Origin: Clostridiales bacterium
GTDB lineage: Bacteria; Bacillota; Clostridia; Saccharofermentanales; Saccharofermentanaceae
Length of the DNA stretch: 64,000 nucleotides
NCBI GenBank assembly: GCA_017552455.1
Contig: JAFZPX010000038.1
Span: 1 to 64,000, forward strand
Reading direction: 5' to 3'
Shown: in pieces, positions 33,687 to 64,000 of the stretch
Layout of the letters: every line of letters starts with the position of its first letter
Position numbering within the stretch: position 1 is the stretch's first letter
Translations under genes and position numbers: made by a program
The notes under the pieces: model-generated
Seen by the model: only the letters and a program-made list of their open reading frames with translations
Database searches by the model: none
Told to the model about the DNA's origin: nothing

Positions 33687-33729
33687 GACCGTGCCCCATT
33701 TTTGCCACAATTTACCTCATTTGCACTGC

Positions 33730-33735
33730 TATATT
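33730..33735 (+). promoter_or_regulatory. -10 box of the SBP gene
   Basis: TGC-TATATT, 59 nt before ATG 33795. Confidence 0.4.
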
Positions 33736-33794
33736 CCACGACGACAACTCAAGAAAAAACGACAAACAAAACGACTCAGAAAGAAAGGAATGTT

Positions 33795-36197
33795 ATGAAC
33801 AAGATTAAGATCATCGCTGCAGCACTTGCAGCAACAATGATGCTCCCCCTTGCAGCTGCGTGCAGCAAAGGCGGAAACAGCACAGGCGATGCGTCGTCAT
33901 CCATTTATACTGATACGAACGCATGGTACAACTTTACCGAGATCCAGCTTGACACTGACTTAAGCCGTGAGAAATACGATTTTGTCAATTGCGATACTGT
34001 CGGTGCTTTTGACGATATACTCGTCGTGCACAAATCAGGATCTCTTCTCACACCGGCAGACGCAGATATTGATATGGATTACTCTGAATTCGTAGTTCAG
34101 GACATCGAATTCTTCGACATGAACGGTGCGATGATCAACTCTATATCCCTTCAGGATTATTTAAGAGAGAACGACCTCGCCCAGACATCATACATCGAGC
34201 GCGTTACAAAGCAGGATGACATGATATCCGTCACGGTTTCTTCTTATGATGTTCAGACTGATACGATCACGAAGTACCAGCTCACTATCGACCCTGCAAC
34301 TTACGAGTTAAGTGCACTCGAGCCGAGGGTAGGCACTGACCTGTCATCATACCTTAACGGACTTGATGTCAGTGAGGAGGATCCCTCAGTTATAGGAACC
34401 ACTACTTTCAGAAAATTCTGGAAGTACAACGATAGTGTTTTCTCATACATCGTTTTCATGATCGATGAGAACAACAACGTTACTGAATTCGATTTTTCCG
34501 AGCTGTTCCCGGATAAGGAAATCTTCGACATCAACTGCTTCCTTGACATCGGGAACGACAGAGCGTTGGTAGTCGCTAACTCCAGCAGCTACAAGACTTT
34601 CTACCTCATCGACATCAACAACAAGACAGTTACTGATGTAACAGCCGACATGAGCTGGTTCAATCTCGAGATCAACGGCTTCCAGCAGGTAGACGGTATC
34701 GGAACAGTCATTAAGGACAACAACGGTATCTATGCTGTTGATTACGACAGCCAGACAGTAAGACCTGTCTTCCTTTATGAGAATTCTTATGTAAACCTTT
34801 CTCACATCATGGGCGCAACACCCATCTACATAACAGAGGACAAGTGCATCTTCTCTGCCGATATCACACCTGCTGACGGCGATAACAGCGCGCAGCGTCA
34901 GGCTATGATCATCGTCTTCGAGAAGTCAGACACAAACCCTAACGATGGCAAGACAATGCTCAGACTCGCTTCAATCGATTACCTCACAGACCCTGTCTGC
35001 GATGCAATCTGCGAGTTCAACCAGACAAACGATCAGTACTACATCCGTGTAGACAATTCCTACCGCTTCAGTGCGACTGAGAGCCAGGTTGCAGCTTCCG
35101 ATACAGACCCCGAGCTTGTCTACGATACTGCAAGCGCAGATCTCGGCAGCAGACTCGCGATCGACCTCATGTCCGGCGACGGCCCAGACATCATCATCAA
35201 CGGCTCTTCCATGCCTATGCTCAACAACGATACTTACCTTGTAAATATCAATGATTTCGTCGCTGAGAACTTCACAGCAGACGCATACTTTACAAATGTT
35301 TTCGAGTCGGCAAAGACCGGTGACGCTATCTACCAGCTGCCTCTGGCCTTCGAGATCTTCGGTATCATGACAAGCGAAGACAGCCTCGCTCCCGGCCAGA
35401 TTGGATTCACTTTCGAGCAGTTCCGTGATTACGTGGCCGGCCCCTGCAACGGCGTTAACCCTGTCGGTTCAACGCAGATGGACGTGTTCCTCAACACATT
35501 GAGCTGCATGCAGGATCAGGTTATCATTGACGGTCACGTTTCTTATAACAACCCTGCTTTCACAGAACTTGCACAGTACACAGCCGAGTCCGTTACAGAC
35601 GAGCTTGTTGCAGTTGAAGGCGACGGCTATGATGGCATGGGGGCAGACGCCTCCACAATGCTCATAAGAAGAGCAAACGACTACTATGGTAATGTATCTT
35701 CCGGCAAGGCTCTCGTAGGTCTGCCTTCACCTGACGGAAGAGGTCCTGTATTCTGCGGCTCCGCTTCTGTAGGTATCTCTGCCACATCACAGGCAGTAGA
35801 CGGCTGTAAGGAGTTCATCAAGATTCTCATGAGCGAGTCCATCCAGGAGAAGTTCGGTGTTTACGATGGTCTCTCCGTAAACCGCACAGCTTTCCACAAC
35901 AACGGTATCGCATACATGAACTCTCACAACACAGACCTTGAGGTTCTGCGCAGATACTACACAGACAGCGAGCTCATCAGCTTCGGCTGGGGTTCACAGC
36001 CCATGCAGGAATCTGACGTTGACGCTTTCACAGAAGTAATTAACAACATGAGCGGATGGCAGTCCAACGACGGCGCTATCAACGCGATCATCCGCGAGGA
36101 GATGCCCGCTTACTTTGCAGGACAGAAGACCCTTGATCAGGTTATCCCCGTCCTCGAGGACCGCGCACAGACAGTCCTCAGCGAGAGATTAGGTTAA
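33795..36197 (+). CDS. Large lipoprotein: N-terminal beta-rich domain plus solute-binding domain
   Basis: 800 residues from ATG 33795 (GAAAGGA upstream). Lipobox at Cys23 (LAAACSK). Residues about 50-390 are beta-rich with repeated LxxIDxxxxTVTDV-type blades, resembling a propeller. Residues about 400-800 are a family-1 extracellular solute-binding domain (RLASIDYLTDPVCDAICEFN, GDGPDIIINGSSMPMLNN, YQLPLAFEIFGIMTS, GCKEFIKILMSESIQEKFG). Typical sugar-binding proteins have only the second part, about 430 residues. No ABC permease or ATPase lies nearby, so it must share a distant one or act only as a sensor or scavenger. Confidence 0.72.
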   Translation: MNKIKIIAAALAATMMLPLAAACSKGGNSTGDASSSIYTDTNAWYNFTEIQLDTDLSREKYDFVNCDTVGAFDDILVVHKSGSLLTPADADIDMDYSEFVVQDIEFFDMNGAMINSISLQDYLRENDLAQTSYIERVTKQDDMISVTVSSYDVQTDTITKYQLTIDPATYELSALEPRVGTDLSSYLNGLDVSEEDPSVIGTTTFRKFWKYNDSVFSYIVFMIDENNNVTEFDFSELFPDKEIFDINCFLDIGNDRALVVANSSSYKTFYLIDINNKTVTDVTADMSWFNLEINGFQQVDGIGTVIKDNNGIYAVDYDSQTVRPVFLYENSYVNLSHIMGATPIYITEDKCIFSADITPADGDNSAQRQAMIIVFEKSDTNPNDGKTMLRLASIDYLTDPVCDAICEFNQTNDQYYIRVDNSYRFSATESQVAASDTDPELVYDTASADLGSRLAIDLMSGDGPDIIINGSSMPMLNNDTYLVNINDFVAENFTADAYFTNVFESAKTGDAIYQLPLAFEIFGIMTSEDSLAPGQIGFTFEQFRDYVAGPCNGVNPVGSTQMDVFLNTLSCMQDQVIIDGHVSYNNPAFTELAQYTAESVTDELVAVEGDGYDGMGADASTMLIRRANDYYGNVSSGKALVGLPSPDGRGPVFCGSASVGISATSQAVDGCKEFIKILMSESIQEKFGVYDGLSVNRTAFHNNGIAYMNSHNTDLEVLRRYYTDSELISFGWGSQPMQESDVDAFTEVINNMSGWQSNDGAINAIIREEMPAYFAGQKTLDQVIPVLEDRAQTVLSERLG

Positions 36198-48798: not shown

Positions 48799-49389
48799 TC
48801 AATCTGCAATCGGCTTCGTCTTGCTGCCGCGCTTGAGCCACGCAGAGTGGATAGGCTTCTCGATATAGTAAGAAGCAAAGCCAGTCAAAAGACCGAGCAG
48901 CATGCCAGCAAGAACATCCGTAGGATAATGAACACCAACGTACATTCTAGAGAACGCGAGCAGCAAAGAGTAAAGCAACAACACCAACGAGATCACATTA
49001 TTCTTCTTCATGTCATCAAGACCGGGCATACCCTTGACTAGCGCAAAGATGATCGCACCTGCAAAAGCGAACGTGATACCAGAGTGACCTGAAGGAAATG
49101 AGTAATCCGGCTGCTTGCCGATCAATATCTCAAGCTCCTCGATAACATCGTAAGGCCTTGTACGTGCCACAGCATTCTTGATGATTCCGTTATTGATGAT
49201 GAACTCGATCGCTAGGCCGATCGCCGTAACATGACCTAACCGGCGCGTCTTAGGCACAATGATCAATATAGCAGCCAAAACTATGCACAGTATGCCGTAA
49301 TCACCCGTATGAGTGATAAAGATCATGAACGGATCAAGGATGTCGTTACGGACAAAATTCTGAAGGAACAGCAGAAATTCAGCTTCCAT
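48799..49389 (-). CDS. PAP2-family membrane phosphatase
   Basis: 196 residues with five to six membrane segments. The three phosphatase motifs are present: KNAVARTRP, PSGHS and SRMYVGVHYPTD. Such enzymes dephosphorylate undecaprenyl diphosphate or phosphatidate at the outer membrane face. Its ATG shares one base with the stop of the DUF4214 lipoprotein gene (TAATG). Confidence 0.85.
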   Translation of the reverse strand: MEAEFLLFLQNFVRNDILDPFMIFITHTGDYGILCIVLAAILIIVPKTRRLGHVTAIGLAIEFIINNGIIKNAVARTRPYDVIEELEILIGKQPDYSFPSGHSGITFAFAGAIIFALVKGMPGLDDMKKNNVISLVLLLYSLLLAFSRMYVGVHYPTDVLAGMLLGLLTGFASYYIEKPIHSAWLKRGSKTKPIAD

Positions 49390-50558
49390 TATTCGGGTTC
49401 ACTCACATTCTCAAGGCTGTACTCGATCATTACCGCTGTTCCGAGCGTGATCTGTGTATCCGTTCCGTTGACGAAGAATACGTCCTCACCATCATCCGCA
49501 GTGTCTTCATAGTATGCGATCTCATCTTCACTGATATTCAGCGTAATGATGCCGTCGTTAAGGGCGAATGTGCATACGCCGTTTACATAAGTGAAGCTTC
49601 CGTCATCAGATGCAGGCGCATAACCGGACTCAGCAAGCATCGCGTCGAGATCGAGGATGAAGTTACCGTCATCATCGAGAGTAACGAACTGGAATACTCT
49701 TCTGTGGATCGTAACCGTGCGTCCGTCTACGATGTAGTTGAATGAAGATGAAGGAATACCGTCATTGATGATAGGTGCAGCACCCGTTATATGACCGTTT
49801 CCGAGGTCGATGCCAAGTGAAGTACAAATGTTATCAAACTCACCGCCCGGCACGTCCATGATGCCGTTAGCAAGCTCGAGACGATCCATGCCGTTCCACA
49901 AAAGGTTAACGTTGTACCACAGGCCGTCCTCATCCGCATTACGGTTAAGAACACCAAGATAGAAAGCCTGCACGAAAGCAACCTCATCAAGCTCTCTTGC
50001 TGTGAACTCGGGGCTGCCGATAATGATGTTAACAAGCTCCATGCCGCTGCGGCTTCCGCTTCTTAATCTTCTTACGTTATCTGTCATCTCATCGAGAGTA
50101 GGATATCTTCCGAGAAGATGTACATAGAGGCGGTCAACAAATGAGATAAGACCTGCATTCTCTTCCTGATCGCAGACCTCATCGCCTGTGATGATATTAA
50201 ATGTAAGAGCCAGCGAACCCGTTACAGAGGAACCGTTACCTTCAACATATACAGTAGCAGTTCCGATATTAACGTTCTGCTCGTATGTAAGCGTGTAATC
50301 CGTGCCTGCTTCAAGCTCGTGTCCGTCAGCAGTGATCACGGGAACCGGGCAGATAATGTCGCCCGTATAGATCTCATCAGGAAGCGCCTCTACATCAGCA
50401 TAACCGAGGTCGACCGGAGCCACTTCAGTCTCTGTCTCCTCAACAGTCTCCACTGCTTCTTCTGTGCCTTCAGACTCACCGCCTGTTACACCGCTGCACG
50501 AAGCAGACAGAAGCATAGTTCCTACAAGTACACATGAGATAAAGACTTTACGTTTCAT
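49389..50558 (-). CDS. DUF4214 lipoprotein with Ig-like domain
   Basis: 389 residues. Lipobox at Cys21 (LSASC), a Glu/Thr/Val linker, an Ig-like domain (about 75-140; AGTDYTLTYEQNVNIGTATVYVEG), and a DUF4214 domain (about 150-255; FVDRLYVHLLGRYPTLDEM and FVQAFYLGVLNRNADEDGLWY), then about 130 beta-rich residues. DUF4214 occurs in surface and S-layer-like proteins, where it may bind glycans. GGGAGG precedes ATG. Confidence 0.75.
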   Translation of the reverse strand: MKRKVFISCVLVGTMLLSASCSGVTGGESEGTEEAVETVEETETEVAPVDLGYADVEALPDEIYTGDIICPVPVITADGHELEAGTDYTLTYEQNVNIGTATVYVEGNGSSVTGSLALTFNIITGDEVCDQEENAGLISFVDRLYVHLLGRYPTLDEMTDNVRRLRSGSRSGMELVNIIIGSPEFTARELDEVAFVQAFYLGVLNRNADEDGLWYNVNLLWNGMDRLELANGIMDVPGGEFDNICTSLGIDLGNGHITGAAPIINDGIPSSSFNYIVDGRTVTIHRRVFQFVTLDDDGNFILDLDAMLAESGYAPASDDGSFTYVNGVCTFALNDGIITLNISEDEIAYYEDTADDGEDVFFVNGTDTQITLGTAVMIEYSLENVSEPE

Positions 50559-54801: not shown

Positions 54802-55383
54802 TTATCCTACGATGGCAGTGTAAGTAATTGCTACTACTTTTCCGTCCTCGAAGATGAAAGAAATGAAGCTGTCGCCTCTTGTATACTCGATACCGGAAGC
54901 ACCCTCTGTGCCGTCCTCGCCGTATGCTGCGCGTACTTCTTCCTCTGTGGAACCGATGCGGATACCCTCAGCTGTAGCAACTGTGTCATCCTTGAGCTCT
55001 ACTGCAGCGATGTAATCAACGCCGTCTCTTGTATAGGAACGTACTACGATTGAGTTGTATGTATACACCTTATCCATACCCTCGTAAGCACATGAAGGCG
55101 CCTCGAAATAAGAAGGATCTCCTCCTAAAGCTGCGATAATCTCATCAGCCTGAGCGTTCATCTCGATTACGATGCCGTTATATGTAAATACATAAGCATC
55201 AGAGCTTGCTTCAGCAGAACCGCCGGGATACTGTGCACCGTTGCCGCCTTCAACAGATACACTCTCTGCAGCCTGTCCGCCTGACAGAACTACGGGAGCT
55301 GTATCCTCATCGCCGCCGGAGCAGGCAACAACAGACAAAGCCATAACAGATGCCATCATTACTGACAAAAACTTCTTGTTCAT
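54802..55383 (-). CDS. Small lipoprotein at the end of the Dlt-like operon
   Basis: 193 residues with lipobox Cys21 (SVVACS), a Gly/Glu linker and a domain with two repeats of a KVYTYNSIVVRSY-type strand followed by GIRIGSTEEEVRAAYG, resembling BamE/SmpA-like lipoproteins of Firmicutes. AAGGAG precedes ATG. It lies 16 nt after the SGNH-like gene and is probably the last gene of the operon. Confidence 0.55.
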   Translation of the reverse strand: MNKKFLSVMMASVMALSVVACSGGDEDTAPVVLSGGQAAESVSVEGGNGAQYPGGSAEASSDAYVFTYNGIVIEMNAQADEIIAALGGDPSYFEAPSCAYEGMDKVYTYNSIVVRSYTRDGVDYIAAVELKDDTVATAEGIRIGSTEEEVRAAYGEDGTEGASGIEYTRGDSFISFIFEDGKVVAITYTAIVG

Positions 55384-55398
55384 AGAAATACTCCTTCT

Positions 55399-56502
55399 TT
55401 AACTCTCAATAGCGTTCGCACCCCAGGATCTGAGCTCTCCGTACTGGGCAAGCTCCGCATTCTGGGCATCGCGAAGTTGATCGTAGAATAATATATCATC
55501 CTCCCACAAGCGTGCAACTTCAGGCACCTCGCGGTAATCCGTAAGATCGAAGCTGTCTGTGAGGTACTGACCTATGAAATCAGCGAACTTCTCGGCACCT
55601 GTCAGATTAAGGTGAAGACCTGCATCGTAGGTGTCGACAGTCATATCAAGACCGATCTGGTCTCTAAGATATATATAGTTGATATAAGTAAGGTTATGAG
55701 CATCAGCAAAATCTCTTACCTGGTCATCCCACTGCTCATACCAGTAAGGATATAAAGTAGGCGCCTTGATAAGGATGAGCTCGATGCCGTTCTGCTCACA
55801 AAGCTCAGCCATGCGCTCGAGGTATTCCATCGAAGTCTCAGGCAAAGTGTAATCGACAAGCGGAGTCGGATCCGGGAACACGGCCTCAGGCATGATATCA
55901 GTTCTCATGTAGTAGCCGTTGATCGTAACGGGATCCTTATCCATTACATGCTCATAATCCGCAGCCGTAAGCTCGCTCCACCTTGAGTGATAACGAAGGA
56001 ACGGGAAGATATAATCGATCATGTTCTCATCTTCTGTCATGGATGCTTCGATGGCATTCCACTTACTCATGGACCACTCCATGCCGTCGAGTGTCATACG
56101 GTTATAAGACTCGCTCTGAGGCTCGCCGTACTTCAATGCGAGAACATTAAAGACAACTACCTCCGGTGTCTCATAGCGAAGCGTATCTTCGAGAAGATAG
56201 TAAGACTGCCATGTAAGCTGCTGTGCACTTCCTCTTATGTAAGATGAGATACCGTAGTCGCGGTACAAAGCGACAGTAGAGATATTCTCATACACTTCGC
56301 AGTCGCCCAAGAAGATAACCTCGTGAGGCTTCTCATCATCGTAGTACTCCTCGATCATGGATCCCTCGACGACTCCCCTTTGATACTTGGGAACGAGCAG
56401 CCTTTGCAGATACCAAAGAGAAACTACCGTAAGTGCTATTCCTGCTATCGTGCACAGAGGGAGAAGCACGTCGCGCTTATTAAGTTCTTTCATACTCTTC
56501 AT
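55399..56502 (-). CDS. DltD-position SGNH-like protein with Cys at the nucleophile
   Basis: 367 residues. One membrane segment at about 12-32 places the rest outside. The SGNH block I region reads VIFLGDCEVYENIS: the usual Ser of GDS is Cys68. The C-terminal block DAGLHLNLTGAEKFADFI keeps the Asp/His pair. It takes the place DltD has in dlt operons, the final acyl-transfer step at the cell surface. The Cys suggests a thioester instead of an ester intermediate. GGAGGAG precedes ATG. Confidence 0.6.
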   Translation of the reverse strand: MKSMKELNKRDVLLPLCTIAGIALTVVSLWYLQRLLVPKYQRGVVEGSMIEEYYDDEKPHEVIFLGDCEVYENISTVALYRDYGISSYIRGSAQQLTWQSYYLLEDTLRYETPEVVVFNVLALKYGEPQSESYNRMTLDGMEWSMSKWNAIEASMTEDENMIDYIFPFLRYHSRWSELTAADYEHVMDKDPVTINGYYMRTDIMPEAVFPDPTPLVDYTLPETSMEYLERMAELCEQNGIELILIKAPTLYPYWYEQWDDQVRDFADAHNLTYINYIYLRDQIGLDMTVDTYDAGLHLNLTGAEKFADFIGQYLTDSFDLTDYREVPEVARLWEDDILFYDQLRDAQNAELAQYGELRSWGANAIES

Positions 56503-56517
56503 AAGTGCTCCTCCTTG

Positions 56518-58101
56518 TCAGAATTGGTTATATATGAACTGCGAAGCATCGAAGCCCGCACCATATGCGCCGAACACGAGCGTGGATACAAGAAGAACCA
56601 CGCATACCAATACAAACAACGGATACTTCTGATACAGGAACACACGGATGTCCTCCCCTATCAAAGCCTTGTACAGACTTACGAGGAAGATGAATACGAT
56701 CGCGATGGCAGCGACCTCATAGTCCGCACTCGTAAGACCTAACTCAAGCAAAGATCCGTTAAAGAGTTTACCGATATTGAATGTATAAAACATCGAGCCG
56801 AACATCTTGAAAGTAAGGCCGACATCTCTGTAGCAATCGAAAAGCTTCAGTGAGCTCATGAGAAGGAACGTTCTTGCTATCTCGAAGATGGCATACCCCT
56901 TCTTCTCCTTGAGATGGAACTTGCCGTGGAACTTCGCATACACAGGCTCAAGTTCCTGCGAAGCCATGATGACAACGAAGTTCATGAGACCCCACACAAC
57001 AAAGTGCCACGCCGCACCGTGCCAGATACCCGTAGCAAGCCACACAGCGAAACATGAGATGTACACCGTTACTCTCTTTCCTACGGCGTTGCCCAAGTGC
57101 TGGCGGGACCATTTCGAGAGCTTGAGCATGGTGGGAGAAACTGACAAGGGGTAGAAGATGTAGTCCGTAAACCACGTTCCCATAGTGATGTGCCAACGGT
57201 TCCAGTATTCCTTGATATTCTTGGAGAAGTACGGGAGGTTGAAGTTCTCCTTCACGGTGATGCCGAGCATCTGTGCGATACCGATAGTGATGTCGATACC
57301 ACCCGTGAAGTCGCAGTAAAGCTGTGCTGCGTAGAGCATCATTACCACGAATACATACGCACCCTTGTACTCGTCCGGGGACTCGGTAAGAGTCTTCAAT
57401 GCGATGACGAGTCTGTCGGCTACAACGAGTTTCTTGAAGTAACCCCAGAGTATCCTCATGAAGCCGTAGGAGACGTTCTGGAACTCGAATTTCTTAGGCT
57501 CATACAGAGTCTGCGAGAGGTCCTCGTATCTGCTGATAGGACCCTGCACAAGCTGCGGGAAGAACGAGACGAACAGCAGGAACTTTAAGAAGTTACGCTG
57601 CGCCTTTATCGTGCCTCTGCAGATGTCGATCGAGTAGGATACAGTCTGGAATGTGTAGAAAGAGATACCCATCGGAACGATGATGTTCACGAAGGATAAA
57701 GGCTCGGTCCTCCATGAGTTCATGGTGTCGATGACGAAGTTGGTGTATTTCGTGACCGCGAGGATGCCGAGGTTGATAAGAAGCGCGAGAAGCATGAGAA
57801 GCTTTGTGACACGCGCTGTAGTGTTCTTGTATTTCTTCTTGGAATCCGTGTCGAAGGATTCCTTGTTGGCTTTAAGATAAGCCTTGCGCTTGGCGTTATA
57901 GTCTTCAGTGATTATCGCGAAGACATAAGCTGTCAGTGCGGTGACGCCGATGAAGATTAAGTATCTCGGGTCGGCGAAGAAATAGAAAGCGAGGGACGCC
58001 ATGAGAAGCAGCGCCCATCTTTCCTTATACGGCGTGAATGCATAGTAGACTAAGATCAGCGCCGCGACGAATACTATAAACGGAAGCGAAGTAAAGAGCA
58101 T
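56518..58101 (-). CDS. MBOAT-family O-acyltransferase (DltB-like)
   Basis: 527 residues with about eleven membrane segments. The MBOAT motif region PYFSKNIKEYWNRWHITMGTWFTDYIFYP (shown in part) and the catalytic His in GIWHGAAWHFVVWG are present. Residues about 60-95 form a Lys-rich cytoplasmic loop. It would move an acyl group from the carrier protein across the membrane. ATG shares a base with the stop of the carrier gene (TGATG). Confidence 0.82.
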   Translation of the reverse strand: MLFTSLPFIVFVAALILVYYAFTPYKERWALLLMASLAFYFFADPRYLIFIGVTALTAYVFAIITEDYNAKRKAYLKANKESFDTDSKKKYKNTTARVTKLLMLLALLINLGILAVTKYTNFVIDTMNSWRTEPLSFVNIIVPMGISFYTFQTVSYSIDICRGTIKAQRNFLKFLLFVSFFPQLVQGPISRYEDLSQTLYEPKKFEFQNVSYGFMRILWGYFKKLVVADRLVIALKTLTESPDEYKGAYVFVVMMLYAAQLYCDFTGGIDITIGIAQMLGITVKENFNLPYFSKNIKEYWNRWHITMGTWFTDYIFYPLSVSPTMLKLSKWSRQHLGNAVGKRVTVYISCFAVWLATGIWHGAAWHFVVWGLMNFVVIMASQELEPVYAKFHGKFHLKEKKGYAIFEIARTFLLMSSLKLFDCYRDVGLTFKMFGSMFYTFNIGKLFNGSLLELGLTSADYEVAAIAIVFIFLVSLYKALIGEDIRVFLYQKYPLFVLVCVVLLVSTLVFGAYGAGFDASQFIYNQF

Positions 58102-58328
58102 CAGTCTTCCTCAAGTCTTGAGATAAGATCCCAGAGTGCCTTAGCGGAATTGAAGTTCTCGGGAACGAGCTCCTTAGCGGGGATCGCTACATCGAATCTG
58201 TCGTTGACCTCAGATACGATCGATACGATATCGAACGAGTCAAGGATCTTGTCGTCGATAAGTGTTGTGCATGTGTCGAAGTCTACGTCTGAGTGCAGAT
58301 CCTTCAAGATCTCGATAAGTTCATCCAT
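58101..58328 (-). CDS. Acyl carrier protein (DltC-like)
   Basis: 75 residues, acidic, one carrier domain. The phosphopantetheine attachment motif is DSFDIV with Ser31. It would carry the activated acyl or aminoacyl group from the adenylation enzyme to the MBOAT protein. GGAG precedes ATG 58328, 24 nt after the adenylation gene. Confidence 0.85.
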   Translation of the reverse strand: MDELIEILKDLHSDVDFDTCTTLIDDKILDSFDIVSIVSEVNDRFDVAIPAKELVPENFNSAKALWDLISRLEED

Positions 58329-58352
58329 TGTTCGTTTCTCCTATTTATTAAT

Positions 58353-59855
58353 TTACTTTCCTTCTGATAAAGCAGTCAGGCCCTTGCGGTCCGTCTTGCC
58401 GTTAGGTGTCAGAGGCAGGCGGTCGAGCTTATGCACCTTGGTAGGCACCATGTAGCGCGGCAGCTTCTCCTTGAGGTAGGAAAGGAGCTCCTTCTCCTCA
58501 GGCCTGCCCTCATAGTATAACTCAATCCTGTCTTTCTTCTTAAGATAAACGGCACATGAGTTTCTTACGCCCTTTATCGAGTTAACGTCAGCCTCGATCT
58601 CGCCGAGCTCAACGCGGTGGCCCATATGCTTGATCTGGAAGTCTTTACGCGATACGAAGACGAGCTCTCCCCTGTCGTTTCTTCTGGCGATATCGCCCGT
58701 TCTGTAGATAAGCTCGGGATATCTGTCGTTAAGAGGATTTTGGACGAATGCCTGAGAAGTTCTCTCGGGATCCTGGTAGTAACCCAGGGTTACGCACGTT
58801 CCTCTCATGCAGATCTCACCCTCGTCAGCAAGCTTGTTGTTCTCATCAAGAAGGAAGATGTCTACGTTCTCGAAGGCCTTGCCGAGCGGGATAACATCGT
58901 CATCCTCGAAGTCACGGTCGACCTCGTAGTACATCGATACACCCGTTGTCTCAGTAGGACCATAGAGGTTGATGTAGCGCACATCGGGCAGAGCCTTCTT
59001 CCACTTCCTGTACTGCTTAATGGGGAATACTTCGCCGCCGAAACCTACGATCTTAAGATACTTCGGCAGCACCTCATCGAGAGCGCCGAAGGCAGAGATC
59101 ATGGTAAGCGCGGAGACAACCCAGCACAGCGTGTTGATCTTATATTCGTTAAGAAATTCCACGAGCTTTATCGGGAACATGAACAGCGTGTGAGGAACGA
59201 TGACCGTCTCGCATCCGAGCTTGATCGTAGGATAGATATCCTTGAGCGAAGCATCGAAATAAAACGGTGTCTGTGAACCGAAGACAGTCTCCTCATCGAA
59301 CTTCATGACATCGCAGAATGACTCGATGTAGTCGATGAGACTTCTGTGGCATACGGCAACACCCTTCGGGATACCTGTAGAACCGGATGTGTACATGATG
59401 TAGCAAGGATCAGTGTCGATCATGGTCGCACGAAGATCGTTAAGCTTAACTTCATCGTGAGTTGTATCCTTGATCTCGTCCCAGACGAAGATCTTCGCAT
59501 CGCCTGCAAGCTGCTCGGCATTGGCCTTAGTTGACTCATCACAGATAACAGCGCGGGGCTGCAGATTCTCGAAGATCAGCCTGATTCTCATCTGAGGCAT
59601 CTCATCGTCGATCGGTACATAGAAGCATCCTGCTTCGAGAGCGGACATGAATGCTGCGATCTGCCCAGGAGTCTTGCTCATGTAGACTGCGACAGGCTCT
59701 CTGACGATACCTTCATTAAGAAGCACCGTACCGCCGGACATTGCCTGTGATCTTAATTCAGCGAATGTGAGTGCCGTCTTCTCATCGCGGAAACTTACCT
59801 TATCGGGAAGTCTTGATGCCGTGTTATCAAGATAATCGAGGACTGTTCTTCTCAT
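58353..59855 (-). CDS. Amino acid adenylation enzyme (DltA-like)
   Basis: 500 residues, a stand-alone adenylation domain: A3 YTSGSTGIPKG, A5 NLYGPTETT, A7 YRTGD, A8 HRVELGEIEADV and the A10 Lys in TPNGKTDRKG. It activates a carboxylate, by analogy D-alanine, and loads it on the carrier protein; the substrate pocket cannot be read by eye with confidence. ATG overlaps the stop of the preceding transglutaminase-like gene by 1 nt. Confidence 0.8.
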   Translation of the reverse strand: MRRTVLDYLDNTASRLPDKVSFRDEKTALTFAELRSQAMSGGTVLLNEGIVREPVAVYMSKTPGQIAAFMSALEAGCFYVPIDDEMPQMRIRLIFENLQPRAVICDESTKANAEQLAGDAKIFVWDEIKDTTHDEVKLNDLRATMIDTDPCYIMYTSGSTGIPKGVAVCHRSLIDYIESFCDVMKFDEETVFGSQTPFYFDASLKDIYPTIKLGCETVIVPHTLFMFPIKLVEFLNEYKINTLCWVVSALTMISAFGALDEVLPKYLKIVGFGGEVFPIKQYRKWKKALPDVRYINLYGPTETTGVSMYYEVDRDFEDDDVIPLGKAFENVDIFLLDENNKLADEGEICMRGTCVTLGYYQDPERTSQAFVQNPLNDRYPELIYRTGDIARRNDRGELVFVSRKDFQIKHMGHRVELGEIEADVNSIKGVRNSCAVYLKKKDRIELYYEGRPEEKELLSYLKEKLPRYMVPTKVHKLDRLPLTPNGKTDRKGLTALSEGK

Positions 59856-61138
59856 CAGTATCCCTCCACTTCAAGTGTGTAGTAGTTAACTCTGTTCTGT
59901 ATAGAATCCTGAGCGATGATGACCGAAGGGTCGTACTGTTCTGTATCGTAACCGTGGTCTTCGTGGTTCAGGTCGTTATATGCATACATGAAGTAATAAC
60001 CTTCGTGATAGTAAGCGTAGCAAGCATCGCAGTGATACCAGATACCGTCGAACTCGACGAGGTTCCAGTAGTGGTTGCACCAGCCTTCCGTATTACGTGT
60101 GCAAAGAAGGTTCGGGATACCGACGTGATCGAGGAACGCACGGCAGACTGAATAATAAGTGAAGCAGTCACCGTGCAGTGTCGTCATGCCGTCGTAAGCA
60201 CCGACCGTCCAGTCGATCTTATCTGATGTATCGATATAGTGGATGTTGTTGTGAGCCCAGTTGAAGATTCTGAATGCGATCTCTACGTCTGTCATGGTGT
60301 CAGGATCGTAGATGTTATAAAGCTCATTAAGCTGATCGCACAGCTCGTACAGCTCCTCAGGCTCGTGATATCTTTCAGGTCTTACACGAAGATGGAGATT
60401 AACCGTAACAGATGACTGATTACCATTCTCATCTGTCGCGATATAAGTTACCGGGAACGTGGATGAGATATTCGTATTAACCTGTGAATTATCAACTGTG
60501 ATCTGAGGATTCGGATCGTAGTTATCGGTAACTGTGATGCCGTCAAGATATGTGACTGCCTCACCGACGAATGCTTCGAGATCATGAGCTCCGTAGATCA
60601 GAGGAGCCGTATGGTCATCGATTACCGTGAAAGGAACATCGACGATCTTCTCATTGCCTGATGCATCCTTTACGGACACCTGGAATACATACTCACCGCC
60701 TGTTGATACATCAGGCTCTGTGACGTATGAGACAGTTACTGCAGCGAGGTCATTTACAGCTGTAACGACCTGATCTGCCGGAGGCAGCTGATCGCAGTAG
60801 ATAGTCTGCGGGATGGCTTCAGCTGAAGGAGCTGTCGTATCGACAATGTTAAGGATGACATTCTGACGGAATCTCCAGAAACCGATCGCCAGCTGATAGG
60901 AACCCGGAACATTGGTGTTGATGCCGGATATGTCAGTGATCATTCTTGAACTTGCTACAGGCTCGATGAAGAAATCATCGAACACGATAGGCGTTCCTGT
61001 CTCGATAGTAAGTTCATCACGGATCCTCGAACACTGCTTGGTGTAGTATCCGTATACGAATATTCCCGCGCCGACAGCAATTCCTGCCAGTGCACATCCT
61101 GTGTACAAAAGAATCTTCTTCCACTTCAACTTCTTCAT
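59855..61138 (-). CDS. Membrane-anchored Ig-like/transglutaminase-like protein 1
   Basis: 427 residues. Membrane anchor at about 9-30, two Ig-like beta domains of the HYR/DUF5011 type (about 35-185 and 190-265; VPFTVIDDHTAPLIYG begins the second), then a transglutaminase-like domain with the triad Cys325 (HGDCFTYY), His356 (WCNHYWNL) and Asp371 (WYHCDAC). It faces outward. Such domains act as cysteine proteases or crosslinking enzymes on the cell wall. It ends the run of three paralogues and is coupled to the DltA-like gene. Confidence 0.78.
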   Translation of the reverse strand: MKKLKWKKILLYTGCALAGIAVGAGIFVYGYYTKQCSRIRDELTIETGTPIVFDDFFIEPVASSRMITDISGINTNVPGSYQLAIGFWRFRQNVILNIVDTTAPSAEAIPQTIYCDQLPPADQVVTAVNDLAAVTVSYVTEPDVSTGGEYVFQVSVKDASGNEKIVDVPFTVIDDHTAPLIYGAHDLEAFVGEAVTYLDGITVTDNYDPNPQITVDNSQVNTNISSTFPVTYIATDENGNQSSVTVNLHLRVRPERYHEPEELYELCDQLNELYNIYDPDTMTDVEIAFRIFNWAHNNIHYIDTSDKIDWTVGAYDGMTTLHGDCFTYYSVCRAFLDHVGIPNLLCTRNTEGWCNHYWNLVEFDGIWYHCDACYAYYHEGYYFMYAYNDLNHEDHGYDTEQYDPSVIIAQDSIQNRVNYYTLEVEGY

Positions 61139-61139
61139 A

Positions 61140-62489
61140 TTACTGTTCTGCCTCGCTTATAACAGTCTGCGTCGAATAATCGAGCATGTCCTGAACAGAT
61201 TCCGTTGCAACGACAACGCCGTCGGGCAGAGTCTCAGGATCGTAACTGTTGTTATATGGATCGAGCTCGGCATCTGTATACATGAAGATGTACGAGATCT
61301 CGGTCATGCTTAAGAAAACACACGCATCGCAGTGATACCACTGACCGTCGATGCAGATAAGATTCCAGTAGTGGCTCGATACATTGATCGGATAGCGCTC
61401 GACTGTGATGCTGTCGATGCCCATCGCACCGTACATCGCACGGCACATAGCCATGTAGTTAAAGCAGTCGCCGTACATGGTCGTCAGTGCATCATAAGCA
61501 CCTGCCGTCCAGTCACACTTATCGGAATCCATCATGTAGTGGATATGCGTGCTTACCCATGCTGTTATGCGGAAAGCCTGTTCCATCTGGCTCATCGAAT
61601 CATCGCAGATGTCATTATCCTCGATGATCTGACGTGCGAGCTCATAGATCTCCTCAGGCTCATAATATCTTTCAGGCTTAACTCTCAAGTGAAGAGTTAC
61701 TGTTGTCGAAGTCGAGTTTCCCTGCTCATCAGTCGCAGTGTAAGTAACGGGATAGTATCCCTCTTCGGTGACATTAACCTGTGTCGTATCAACCTCGATC
61801 GTAGGATCAGTATCGTAGTCATCCTCGACTGTGATGCCGTCGAGATAAGTTATCGCATCACCGATGAAAGCTTCGAAGTCACGGCATCCGTAGATCAAAG
61901 GAGCTGTGTGATCGTCGATTACCGTGAAAGGCACATTGATGATCGTCTCATTTCCGTAAGCATCAGTAAGCTTAACAGGAACATCATACTCTCCGCCCTC
62001 AAGAATGGAGGGCATCTCATTGGCATAAGTGACAGTAACTGAAGAAAAATCTGTGATGCCTTCAACCGTCATCTCAGGTGCAGGAAGACCATCAGTATAG
62101 ATAGTCTGCGGAATCGCCTGTGCAACAGGCGCTGTCGTATCAACGATGTTAAGAACAACGTCTCTTGTGACATGGATCTTATCGCCTACGCTTACCTTCA
62201 CGCCGTAGCTTGCAGGTACATTCGTGTTGATGCCTGATACATCAGTAATCAAAGATGCATTCGGAGCACCAGCTTCCGTGAACAAAGATATATCGATCGG
62301 AGAACCCGCTTCGATCGTAACAACTTCATAGATCTTATTCATCAGGTGATGCGTGTAGAGTCTGTAACCCATGAATGCGCATCCTGCGATAAGAACAACA
62401 ACGACGCCTGCCGTTATCGCTCTCTTTCTTCGTTCTCTATATACTCGCTGAGGAGTTATCTGCTTATGTTCGCCTTCGTGTCTCTTCAT
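61140..62489 (-). CDS. Membrane-anchored Ig-like/transglutaminase-like protein 2
   Basis: 449 residues, same layout as its neighbours: basic N-terminus (RRKRAITAG), membrane segment near 24-43, two Ig-like domains, transglutaminase-like domain with Cys342 (YGDCFNYM), His373 (SSHYWNL) and Asp388 (WYHCDAC). The second Ig-like domain is nearly the same as in protein 1. It lies 1 nt upstream of protein 1. Confidence 0.78.
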   Translation of the reverse strand: MKRHEGEHKQITPQRVYRERRKRAITAGVVVVLIAGCAFMGYRLYTHHLMNKIYEVVTIEAGSPIDISLFTEAGAPNASLITDVSGINTNVPASYGVKVSVGDKIHVTRDVVLNIVDTTAPVAQAIPQTIYTDGLPAPEMTVEGITDFSSVTVTYANEMPSILEGGEYDVPVKLTDAYGNETIINVPFTVIDDHTAPLIYGCRDFEAFIGDAITYLDGITVEDDYDTDPTIEVDTTQVNVTEEGYYPVTYTATDEQGNSTSTTVTLHLRVKPERYYEPEEIYELARQIIEDNDICDDSMSQMEQAFRITAWVSTHIHYMMDSDKCDWTAGAYDALTTMYGDCFNYMAMCRAMYGAMGIDSITVERYPINVSSHYWNLICIDGQWYHCDACVFLSMTEISYIFMYTDAELDPYNNSYDPETLPDGVVVATESVQDMLDYSTQTVISEAEQ

Positions 62490-63787
62490 TATTCCTCTAT
62501 GTCGTTCATCGTAAAGTTAGTAAAATCCAGCCTGTCCTGAACAGATACATTGGATGTTGCAGGGACTGTGGCTGCATTGAATTCATGATGATGGTCAAGC
62601 TCGGAATCGATCTGCATGAATACGAATCCTGACGTATCCGCGAAGTTACATGCATCGCAGTGATACCACTGACCGTCGATCTTGATAAGGTTCCAGTAAT
62701 GGGGAGAAGTTGTGATCGGATACCTCTCCACTCTTACGTTCTCGATACCTGCCACATCGAGCATCGCTCTGCACACTGCATAGTATGTATAGCAGTCGCC
62801 TGTGTGAGTATCGAATCCGTCGATCGCAGCGATAGTCCAGTCGGACTTATCGGAAGTTCCTGTATAGCTGATATTACGGTATGCCCAGTCGAAGATCCTG
62901 AATGCGATCTCGACCTGCGAGAAGCTCTCGACAGGCTCGCCTCCGAGCACCGTGTTATAAAGAACATCAGCGCTTCTGCCATAGACTTCGCTTCTTTCCA
63001 AAGAAGTCTCGGGCATCTGCTCGAGGATAAGATCCGAAGGCTTTGAGACGCTGTTGCCGTGCGCATCCGTCGCCGTGTATGTGATCTGGTAAACACCTGC
63101 CGTCTCGGGATCAACCTGCGACAGATCAACCGTAACAACAGGCTCCGGATCGAAGTCATCGCTTACAGTTACATTCTCGAGATAAGATGTACTTCCTCCG
63201 ATGAAAGCATAGATGCAAGTAGGCACCTGCAATGAAGGTGCCGTAGTATCTGCCGTAACATCAAAAGGAACATTGACTATTGTCTGATTGCCGTAAGGAT
63301 CTGAAAGACTTACGGGAACGTCGTAGATTCCGCCTTCCATGGGTACAGTCATCTCATTCACATAAGCTATCGTGACAGGTGCAAGATCAGATACACCCGT
63401 AACAACATCTGATGCCAGAGGAAGATCGTCCTGGAACAGAACCTGTGCAACCGGCTCGCCCACAGGAGCCGTAGTATCAACGATATCGAGAATTACATCT
63501 CTTGCGATACCGAGTGTCTTCACGCGAAGACCGTATGTGCCCGGCACCATGTTATCGATCAACGAGACGTCCGTTATAAAGGAGCATCCCGGAATATCTT
63601 CAGTAACGAAAAGGTCGATAGTAACAGGTGTGCCCGTCTCTATCGTAACCTGCTCATTGAGGCAGCCTTTTACTTTCTTGTAGTACATGACCCCGTAGCC
63701 CGCATCGAGGACAACAAGTCCTAACGCGACTACTATCAAAAGTGCGTTCATCGTAGACAGACCGCGCTTTGAAAGATCACTTCTCAA
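62489..63787 (-). CDS. Membrane-anchored Ig-like/transglutaminase-like protein 3
   Basis: 432 residues from TTG 63787, with GGGAGGAGGGG at the proper distance; this start lies inside the 3' end of purF. Membrane segment near 14-32, two Ig-like domains, and a transglutaminase-like domain with Cys332 (TGDCYTYY), His363 (SPHYWNL) and Asp378 (WYHCDAC). It is the most divergent of the three and lacks the RVRPERYxEPEE linker of the others. First gene of the operon after purF. Confidence 0.76.
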   Translation of the reverse strand: MRSDLSKRGLSTMNALLIVVALGLVVLDAGYGVMYYKKVKGCLNEQVTIETGTPVTIDLFVTEDIPGCSFITDVSLIDNMVPGTYGLRVKTLGIARDVILDIVDTTAPVGEPVAQVLFQDDLPLASDVVTGVSDLAPVTIAYVNEMTVPMEGGIYDVPVSLSDPYGNQTIVNVPFDVTADTTAPSLQVPTCIYAFIGGSTSYLENVTVSDDFDPEPVVTVDLSQVDPETAGVYQITYTATDAHGNSVSKPSDLILEQMPETSLERSEVYGRSADVLYNTVLGGEPVESFSQVEIAFRIFDWAYRNISYTGTSDKSDWTIAAIDGFDTHTGDCYTYYAVCRAMLDVAGIENVRVERYPITTSPHYWNLIKIDGQWYHCDACNFADTSGFVFMQIDSELDHHHEFNAATVPATSNVSVQDRLDFTNFTMNDIEE

Positions 63788-64000
63788 GTGCTGCCCCTCC
63801 TCCCTCAAGAAGGTCTATACCCGTGTCGATGTTGGGGTAGTCACCCGTGAAGCATGCGTCGCAGTAGCATTTCGAAGAGCCTTCGGGAAGACCTAACATC
63901 GCAGTCAGGCTGTTAACGTCGAGGTAGCCCAGAGAGTCTGCTCCTATCTTCTCGCAGATCTCATCTACCGTGTACTTACGCGCGATGAGCTTGTCTGTGG
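63777..64000 (-). CDS. purF: Amidophosphoribosyltransferase, C-terminal part
   Basis: Partial: the 5' part lies outside the window. The last 74 residues read DEICEKIGADSLGYLDVNSL, then CYCDACFTGDYP near the end, which are C-terminal PurF motifs including the iron-sulfur/Cys region. PurF makes 5-phosphoribosylamine, the first step of purine synthesis. Its stop (63777-63779) overlaps the start of the first transglutaminase-like gene, so those genes may ride on purF transcripts. Confidence 0.85.
   Translation of the reverse strand, partial: TDKLIARKYTVDEICEKIGADSLGYLDVNSLTAMLGLPEGSSKCYCDACFTGDYPNIDTGIDLLEGGGAALEK

Follow-up and report, generated by a model that had tools for sequence, protein, structure and literature searches.

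The stretch analysed here, the window, is 64,000 nucleotides from a Saccharofermentans-like rumen Clostridia genome that is 69% complete, with Saccharofermentans-like loci as its nearest relatives. Its minus strand carries, at 54802-63808, a set of genes in which purF is followed by three genes for transglutaminase-like (TG) proteins (TG1, TG2 and TG3) and then by those for an adenylation enzyme (ADN), a carrier protein, an MBOAT acyltransferase, an SGNH-fold protein and a lipoprotein. The gene coordinates and the Pfam and NCBIfam matches agree with the genes, order and domains proposed in an earlier sequence-only reading of this DNA, and also with the 0-1-nt junctions it described among TG1, TG2, TG3 and ADN: TG1 and TG2 overlap by 1 nt, TG2 and TG3 are separated by 1 nt, and TG3 and ADN overlap by 1 nt. 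The other junctions are at most 24 nt (gaps of 24 nt between ADN and carrier and of 15 nt on either side of the SGNH gene; carrier and MBOAT overlap by 1 nt). From gene content, motifs, catalytic triads, predicted folds and conserved co-occurrence, we suggest that the set would encode a Dlt-like pathway of envelope acylation whose surface half relies on cysteine, and in which the TG proteins would be the final transferase or an editor; we give this proposal about an even chance of being correct.

TG1 (62489-63808, 439 aa), TG2 (61140-62489, 449 aa) and TG3 (59855-61138, 427 aa) are anchored proteins, all three matching Transglut_core (PF01841) above the Pfam cut-off (E 2.9e-06, 3.4e-09 and 1.3e-06, respectively). 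The listed start of TG1 is a TTG at 63808, inside purF; about 19 codons further on there is an alternative in-frame ATG. By alignment, the Cys-His-Asp site that had been read from the sequence is intact in each protein (GDC/HYWN/HCD in TG1), as it is in 101 of 101 aligned TG proteins; the catalytic cysteines are Cys339 of TG1 (62792-62794), Cys342 of TG2 (61464-61466) and Cys325 of TG3 (60164-60166). In the AlphaFold2 (AF2) model of TG2 (pLDDT 90.3), a membrane helix at the N-terminal end (residues 13-50) is followed by three extracytoplasmic beta domains, where two Ig-like domains had been proposed, and by a TG core at about 277-437. The best structural match is TglA of Streptococcus pyogenes (PDB 9crn; Z 14.5, 148 residues, rmsd 3.2, 14% identity), followed by LapG, factor XIII, PeiP, PNGase, arylamine N-acetyltransferase and other TG-fold enzymes. 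LapG, PeiP, PNGase, arylamine N-acetyltransferase and the transglutaminases are all cysteine enzymes of acyl transfer or hydrolysis, and the transglutaminase-like superfamily as a whole contains both transferases and hydrolases. TG1, TG2 and TG3 form three orthologous groups, each conserved separately across some eight related species; one more distant species has two of the groups. Judged by this distribution of their sequences, the three paralogues are old, and their separate conservation suggests lasting, distinct roles. It would fit the earlier proposal that the triplication may reflect different acceptors. A plasmid collection searched with TG2 gave no relevant match.

The structural matches bring in the main rival to a transfer role, which is that the TG proteins are hydrolases of editing or turnover that remove the aminoacyl group installed by the Dlt-like half, or a nearby peptide or amide (compare LapG and the pseudomurein endoisopeptidases). 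Proteases and amidases are common among bacterial TG-fold enzymes, and the matches of TG2 include LapG, PeiP and PNGase. We consider a hydrolytic role possible and return to it below.

The cytoplasmic and membrane components resemble those of the Dlt system but are distinct from them. ADN (58353-59855) is DltA-like (PF00501, E 2.2e-64; TIGR01733, 323.6 bits, above cut-off). The acyl/aminoacyl carrier protein (58101-58328, 75 aa) matches PF00550 (E 0.0014) slightly below the Pfam cut-off and retains the phosphopantetheine serine, Ser31, in an intact LDSFD context. The MBOAT protein (56518-58101, 527 aa) is DltB-like and matches PF03062 (E 1.7e-15). None of the three reaches the cut-off of the corresponding Dlt model: ADN scores 281.3 bits against the DltA model TIGR01734 (cut-off 559.85), the carrier 19.9 against the DltC model TIGR01688 (52.35) and the MBOAT protein 152.8 against the DltB model TIGR04091 (375). 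The pocket code of ADN is D-A-K-C-G-G-L-G-V-K (D201, A202, K205, C244, G271, G273, L297, G305, V306 and K487), and the corresponding sites in Bacillus cereus DltA (3fcc) read FDLSVMDIY, VWTSTPS, FLFCGEV and NTYGPTEATV. Asp201, at the position that binds the substrate amino group in amino-acid-activating enzymes, is kept. Lys205 (59241-59243) sits where DltA has Met or Leu (Met in the B. cereus enzyme), Gly273 sits at the DltA pocket cysteine, and the DltA-type pocket (D-L-M/L-...-L-C) is absent. The comparison with DltA, which the sequence-only reading had proposed, thus shows a pocket that is not that of DltA. With all three subunits scoring well short of the Dlt models of NCBIfam and with a different ADN pocket, this is not a canonical Dlt system.

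The MBOAT protein ends in FIYNQF (56521-56538), a tyrosine acyl-shuttle motif, and an FIY-type C-terminal hexapeptide is found in nearly all intact MBOATs of our survey. In PatA and Dlt, the acyl group travels on the hexapeptide tyrosine to the SGNH partner, whose serine receives it (PMC12148441). We found no separate DltX microprotein at the locus; the shuttle motif is on the MBOAT C-terminus and the junctions leave no space for one. A near-canonical dlt locus used as a control (L229) has FIYNGF on a separate 70-aa open reading frame before dltA, as expected for DltX. The absence of DltX and the cysteine in place of serine in the SGNH protein (below) add to the model scores and the pocket in ruling out a canonical dlt operon at this position. 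An additional one elsewhere in the genome, which had also been raised as a check, was not found: there is no second MBOAT in this 69% complete assembly. A second DltA-like adenylation enzyme is encoded on contig C67 of the same genome, G000 (87218-88708; 11207-12721 in L113), with the code DLQVLCLEAK and a DltA-like pocket cysteine. It belongs to a polysaccharide-type cluster with a carrier and no second MBOAT, and was rejected as a canonical dlt operon.

A further departure from Dlt concerns the DltD-like SGNH protein (55399-56502). The structures matched by its AF2 model (pLDDT 92.6, pTM 0.90) include TesA (Z about 12) and DltD (3bma; Z 11.2), and GDSL-type profile matches, mostly weak, were obtained for 21 of 26 relatives. 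The earlier assignment as SGNH-like holds for the fold but not for the nucleophile, since Cys68 (56299-56301) occupies the position of the catalytic serine. In the TesA alignment, residue 59 of the model lies opposite TesA residue 1, which puts Cys68 on the catalytic Ser10 if no gap intervenes; a gap is unlikely because a GDC motif replaces GDS. His297 is kept, with Asp290/293. Among 128 relatives, the block I nucleophile is Cys in 79 of 79 members of the window protein's group, in which identity is as low as 39%, and Ser in all 49 others. A precedent for Cys at block I may be the GSCFA family of the SGNH superfamily, whose name implies the same residue, although no GSCFA match was found in Pfam for the present proteins. 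A review of the superfamily lists GSCFA without known activity (PMC9487903).

We examined the association of these genes in two samples. The first comprised 80 relatives retrieved with the ADN protein alone; in 59 of these the locus includes a TG gene of this family, usually as the first or second gene upstream of ADN. The neighbourhood survey suggested by the sequence-only reading hence yields a strongly conserved association. The ADN relatives that lack a TG gene are mainly those with a DAIR pocket (11), with a few outliers and incomplete contigs. The order TG-[racemase]-ADN-carrier-MBOAT-SGNH-lipoprotein is kept in Lachnospiraceae, Oscillospiraceae and Saccharofermentans-like genomes. The second sample was independent of ADN. 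The SGNH protein served as query against 397 Lachnospiraceae genomes and gave a match of some kind in 202; of the loci, 60 spanning strong to weak matches (24 Cys-type, 36 Ser-type) were analysed. TG was present in 20 of the Cys-type and one of the Ser-type loci (Fisher p 5e-11, a value overstated by relatedness). When all 128 SGNH relatives are considered, TG is nearby in 73 of 79 Cys-types, which come from many genera, and one of 49 Ser-types. That TG and the lipoprotein go with Cys-type and not Ser-type SGNH proteins is left unexplained if the TG proteins are hydrolases. The conserved position beside the module is also hard to reconcile with the TG genes being passengers, that is, unrelated surface genes in a shared operon. 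TG does vary in position (L079, L084, L167 and L076), and a few Cys-type loci have none within 14 kb, but in L079 and L084 the TG, racemase and SGNH genes have been rearranged together. We therefore regard passenger genes as very improbable.

The lipoprotein (54802-55383; lipobox Cys21) strengthens the case for a cysteine-based pathway. Its second, extracytoplasmic cysteine, Cys98 (55090-55092), is invariant in all 49 homologues that have a residue there. No homologue with a known family or structure was found. The lipoprotein was present genome-wide in 10 of 10 other Cys-SGNH genomes tested, even when encoded elsewhere (in one of them beside a second TG gene); in the genomes sampled for Ser-SGNH, a strong match was seen in none of 28, with one weak match. 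As the lipoprotein tracks Cys-SGNH genomes and, one weak match apart, is absent from the genomes sampled for Ser-SGNH, we conclude that TG, Cys-SGNH and Cys-lipoprotein are one co-inherited surface unit. The sequence-only reading had been silent on the Cys-type SGNH protein and Cys98, as on the shuttle motif of the MBOAT. In a more conservative interpretation, the system is one of ordinary O-aminoacylation, in which a DltD-like transferase forms esters with Cys68 simply in the place of Ser, and the TG protein and lipoprotein are accessory or structural. The MBOAT, shuttle motif and SGNH fold do match known MBOAT/SGNH systems, and one locus (L069) combines an acidic-type pocket and a racemase with a Ser-SGNH and no TG. 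Set against this, Cys68, the TG triad and Cys98 are essentially invariant despite identities down to 30-40%, and we judge ordinary O-aminoacylation unlikely.

The substrate of ADN is suggested by its pocket and by related loci. Lysine at the position of Lys205 is also known from glutamate-activating A domains, whose code begins with DAK; ADN has both Asp201 and Lys205, and its remaining pocket positions differ from that code. A DAKC or DARC pocket occurs in 64 of the 80 ADN relatives, 59 of them with TG in the locus. A racemase gene is found in 45 of the 80 loci, normally between TG and ADN; three of these racemases scored 203, 178 and 207 bits against TIGR00035 (Asp-type amino acid racemase; cut-off 93) and also passed the cysteate racemase model. 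A D-aminoacyl-tRNA deacylase gene directly follows the SGNH gene in 13 Pseudobutyrivibrio-type loci, and seven other loci have an asparagine synthase within the cluster. Since racemase, deacylase and asparagine synthase all occur in related loci, the amino acid activated by ADN is most likely acidic, either aspartate or glutamate, and in many relatives it would be the D-isomer. The export of an activated aminoacyl group, as proposed from the sequence, is consistent with the MBOAT shuttle motif, the ADN pocket, and the racemase and D-aminoacyl-tRNA deacylase of related operons. The identity of pocket residue 306 varies with the presence of the racemase (Met/Ile in 42 loci with and 6 without; Val in 3 with and 13 without), a pattern confounded by phylogeny. 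The window's own clade has Val306 and no racemase. None was found in the window, in its genome (solely a weak MurI-like match) or in the near-complete relative G012 (99% complete), and the ADN of this clade may use an L-amino acid, or D-Glu supplied by MurI. The DAIR pocket (Arg at the position of Cys244), seen in 11 ADN relatives, is accompanied by TG in none and by a racemase in none. It characterises Dlt-like sets of Lachnospiraceae (L095, L097, L101-L106 and L111) with a Ser-type SGNH where seen, several of which adjoin tRNA synthetase genes; such loci probably use another substrate.

Several observations weigh against our proposal. The tree of the 128 SGNH proteins shows just two changes between Cys and Ser, so that the linkage of TG to Cys is essentially one conserved event and not repeated evidence; in an independent-pairs test of Cys against TG, two changes are too few for significance. 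No TG was seen within the stretch examined in three Cys-type loci whose contigs were adequate (L173, L176 and L187), and L186 is a TG locus with a Ser-type SGNH (GDS). The missing racemase in the window's genome and in G012 makes the D-form uncertain in this organism. Finally, some Cys/TG loci have different ADN pockets (L168, L172, L177, L178 and L179) and others no ADN nearby (L174, L180-L184 and L186), with none at E 1e-50 in six of the latter genomes. These loci rule out a coupling of TG to a single amino acid and are also a point for the hydrolase interpretation. In view of them, the surface unit seems able to handle several different acyl groups. The pockets of the first five are VIHF, NIQF, SMLY, DVKI and VVHF, respectively, several of which lack the amino-group Asp, and these loci likely handle other acyl groups. 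L186 combines its GDS-type SGNH with TG and a Cys-lipoprotein, and its Ser state is likely a reversion. L181, L183 and L186, all TG loci without a nearby adenylation enzyme, have in common an upstream protein of about 750 aa.

We nonetheless favour the cysteine-based pathway, and from the features above we infer the identity of the amino acid, a thioester, the direction of transfer, the acceptor and the roles of the TG proteins and lipoprotein as follows. ADN would activate an amino acid, most likely acidic, and load it onto the carrier. The MBOAT protein would move the aminoacyl group across the membrane and attach it to the tyrosine in the FIYNQF at its own C-terminus. The SGNH protein would then receive the group on Cys68 as a thioester, where DltD uses a serine ester. 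Outside the cell, the anchored TG proteins and the Cys98 lipoprotein would act on the thioester, most likely by transferring the group to an acceptor. The acceptor could be an amine, giving an amide bond, with the TG cysteine forming an acyl-enzyme. We prefer transfer by TG, perhaps to an amine, because a thioester is a better amine donor than an ester and the TG fold works through a cysteine acyl-enzyme. In its most specific form, an extracytoplasmic thioester relay would start with an acidic (D-)amino acid on the MBOAT tyrosine, pass it to the SGNH cysteine, perhaps via Cys98 of the lipoprotein, and end in a TG-made amide on a surface acceptor; this we put forward tentatively. Were the relay correct, Dlt-type export would feed the formation of surface amides or isopeptides and not of esters.

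Around the set, the upstream purF is represented by its 3' end (63777-63998, minus strand; TIGR01134, E 2.2e-06 over a 73-aa fragment), and rplM-rpsI come after the lipoprotein gene. Elsewhere in the window, 49389-50558 encodes a lipoprotein-like protein with a DUF4214 domain (E 1.5e-12), and 33702-36197 is an open reading frame of 831 aa with no Pfam match at E 1e-05.

MBOAT/SGNH envelope acylation is thought to finish with serine-catalysed ester formation. The replacement of Ser by Cys, together with TG and an invariant-Cys lipoprotein, in a widespread gut and rumen lineage suggests that both the surface chemistry and the amino acid are different, and this would change surface charge otherwise than D-alanylation does. 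In the openly licensed literature we found no paper on TG linked to Dlt/MBOAT sets, on a Cys-type SGNH acyltransferase or on TglA. TglA has the TG core fold in common with TG2, at 14% identity, and we know of no Dlt-like partner for it. In AdmF-type transglutaminase homologues of antibiotic assembly lines, carrier-bound aminoacyl thioesters are converted to amides in the cytoplasm; the TG proteins here have the fold in common with them but are anchored outside the cell. The dltXABCD operon for D-alanylation of teichoic acids likewise combines an adenylation enzyme, carrier, MBOAT, tyrosine shuttle motif and SGNH transferase, whereas in the present set the pocket is different, the motif is fused to the MBOAT (it is on DltX in dltXABCD), Cys replaces Ser, and TG and a Cys-lipoprotein are added. 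PatA/PatB-type MBOAT-SGNH systems have the same arrangement of a C-terminal hexapeptide fused to the MBOAT and a separate SGNH protein (PMC12148441), but they draw on acyl-CoA, whereas the set described here would take its acyl group from ADN and the carrier and has a Cys nucleophile, TG and the lipoprotein.

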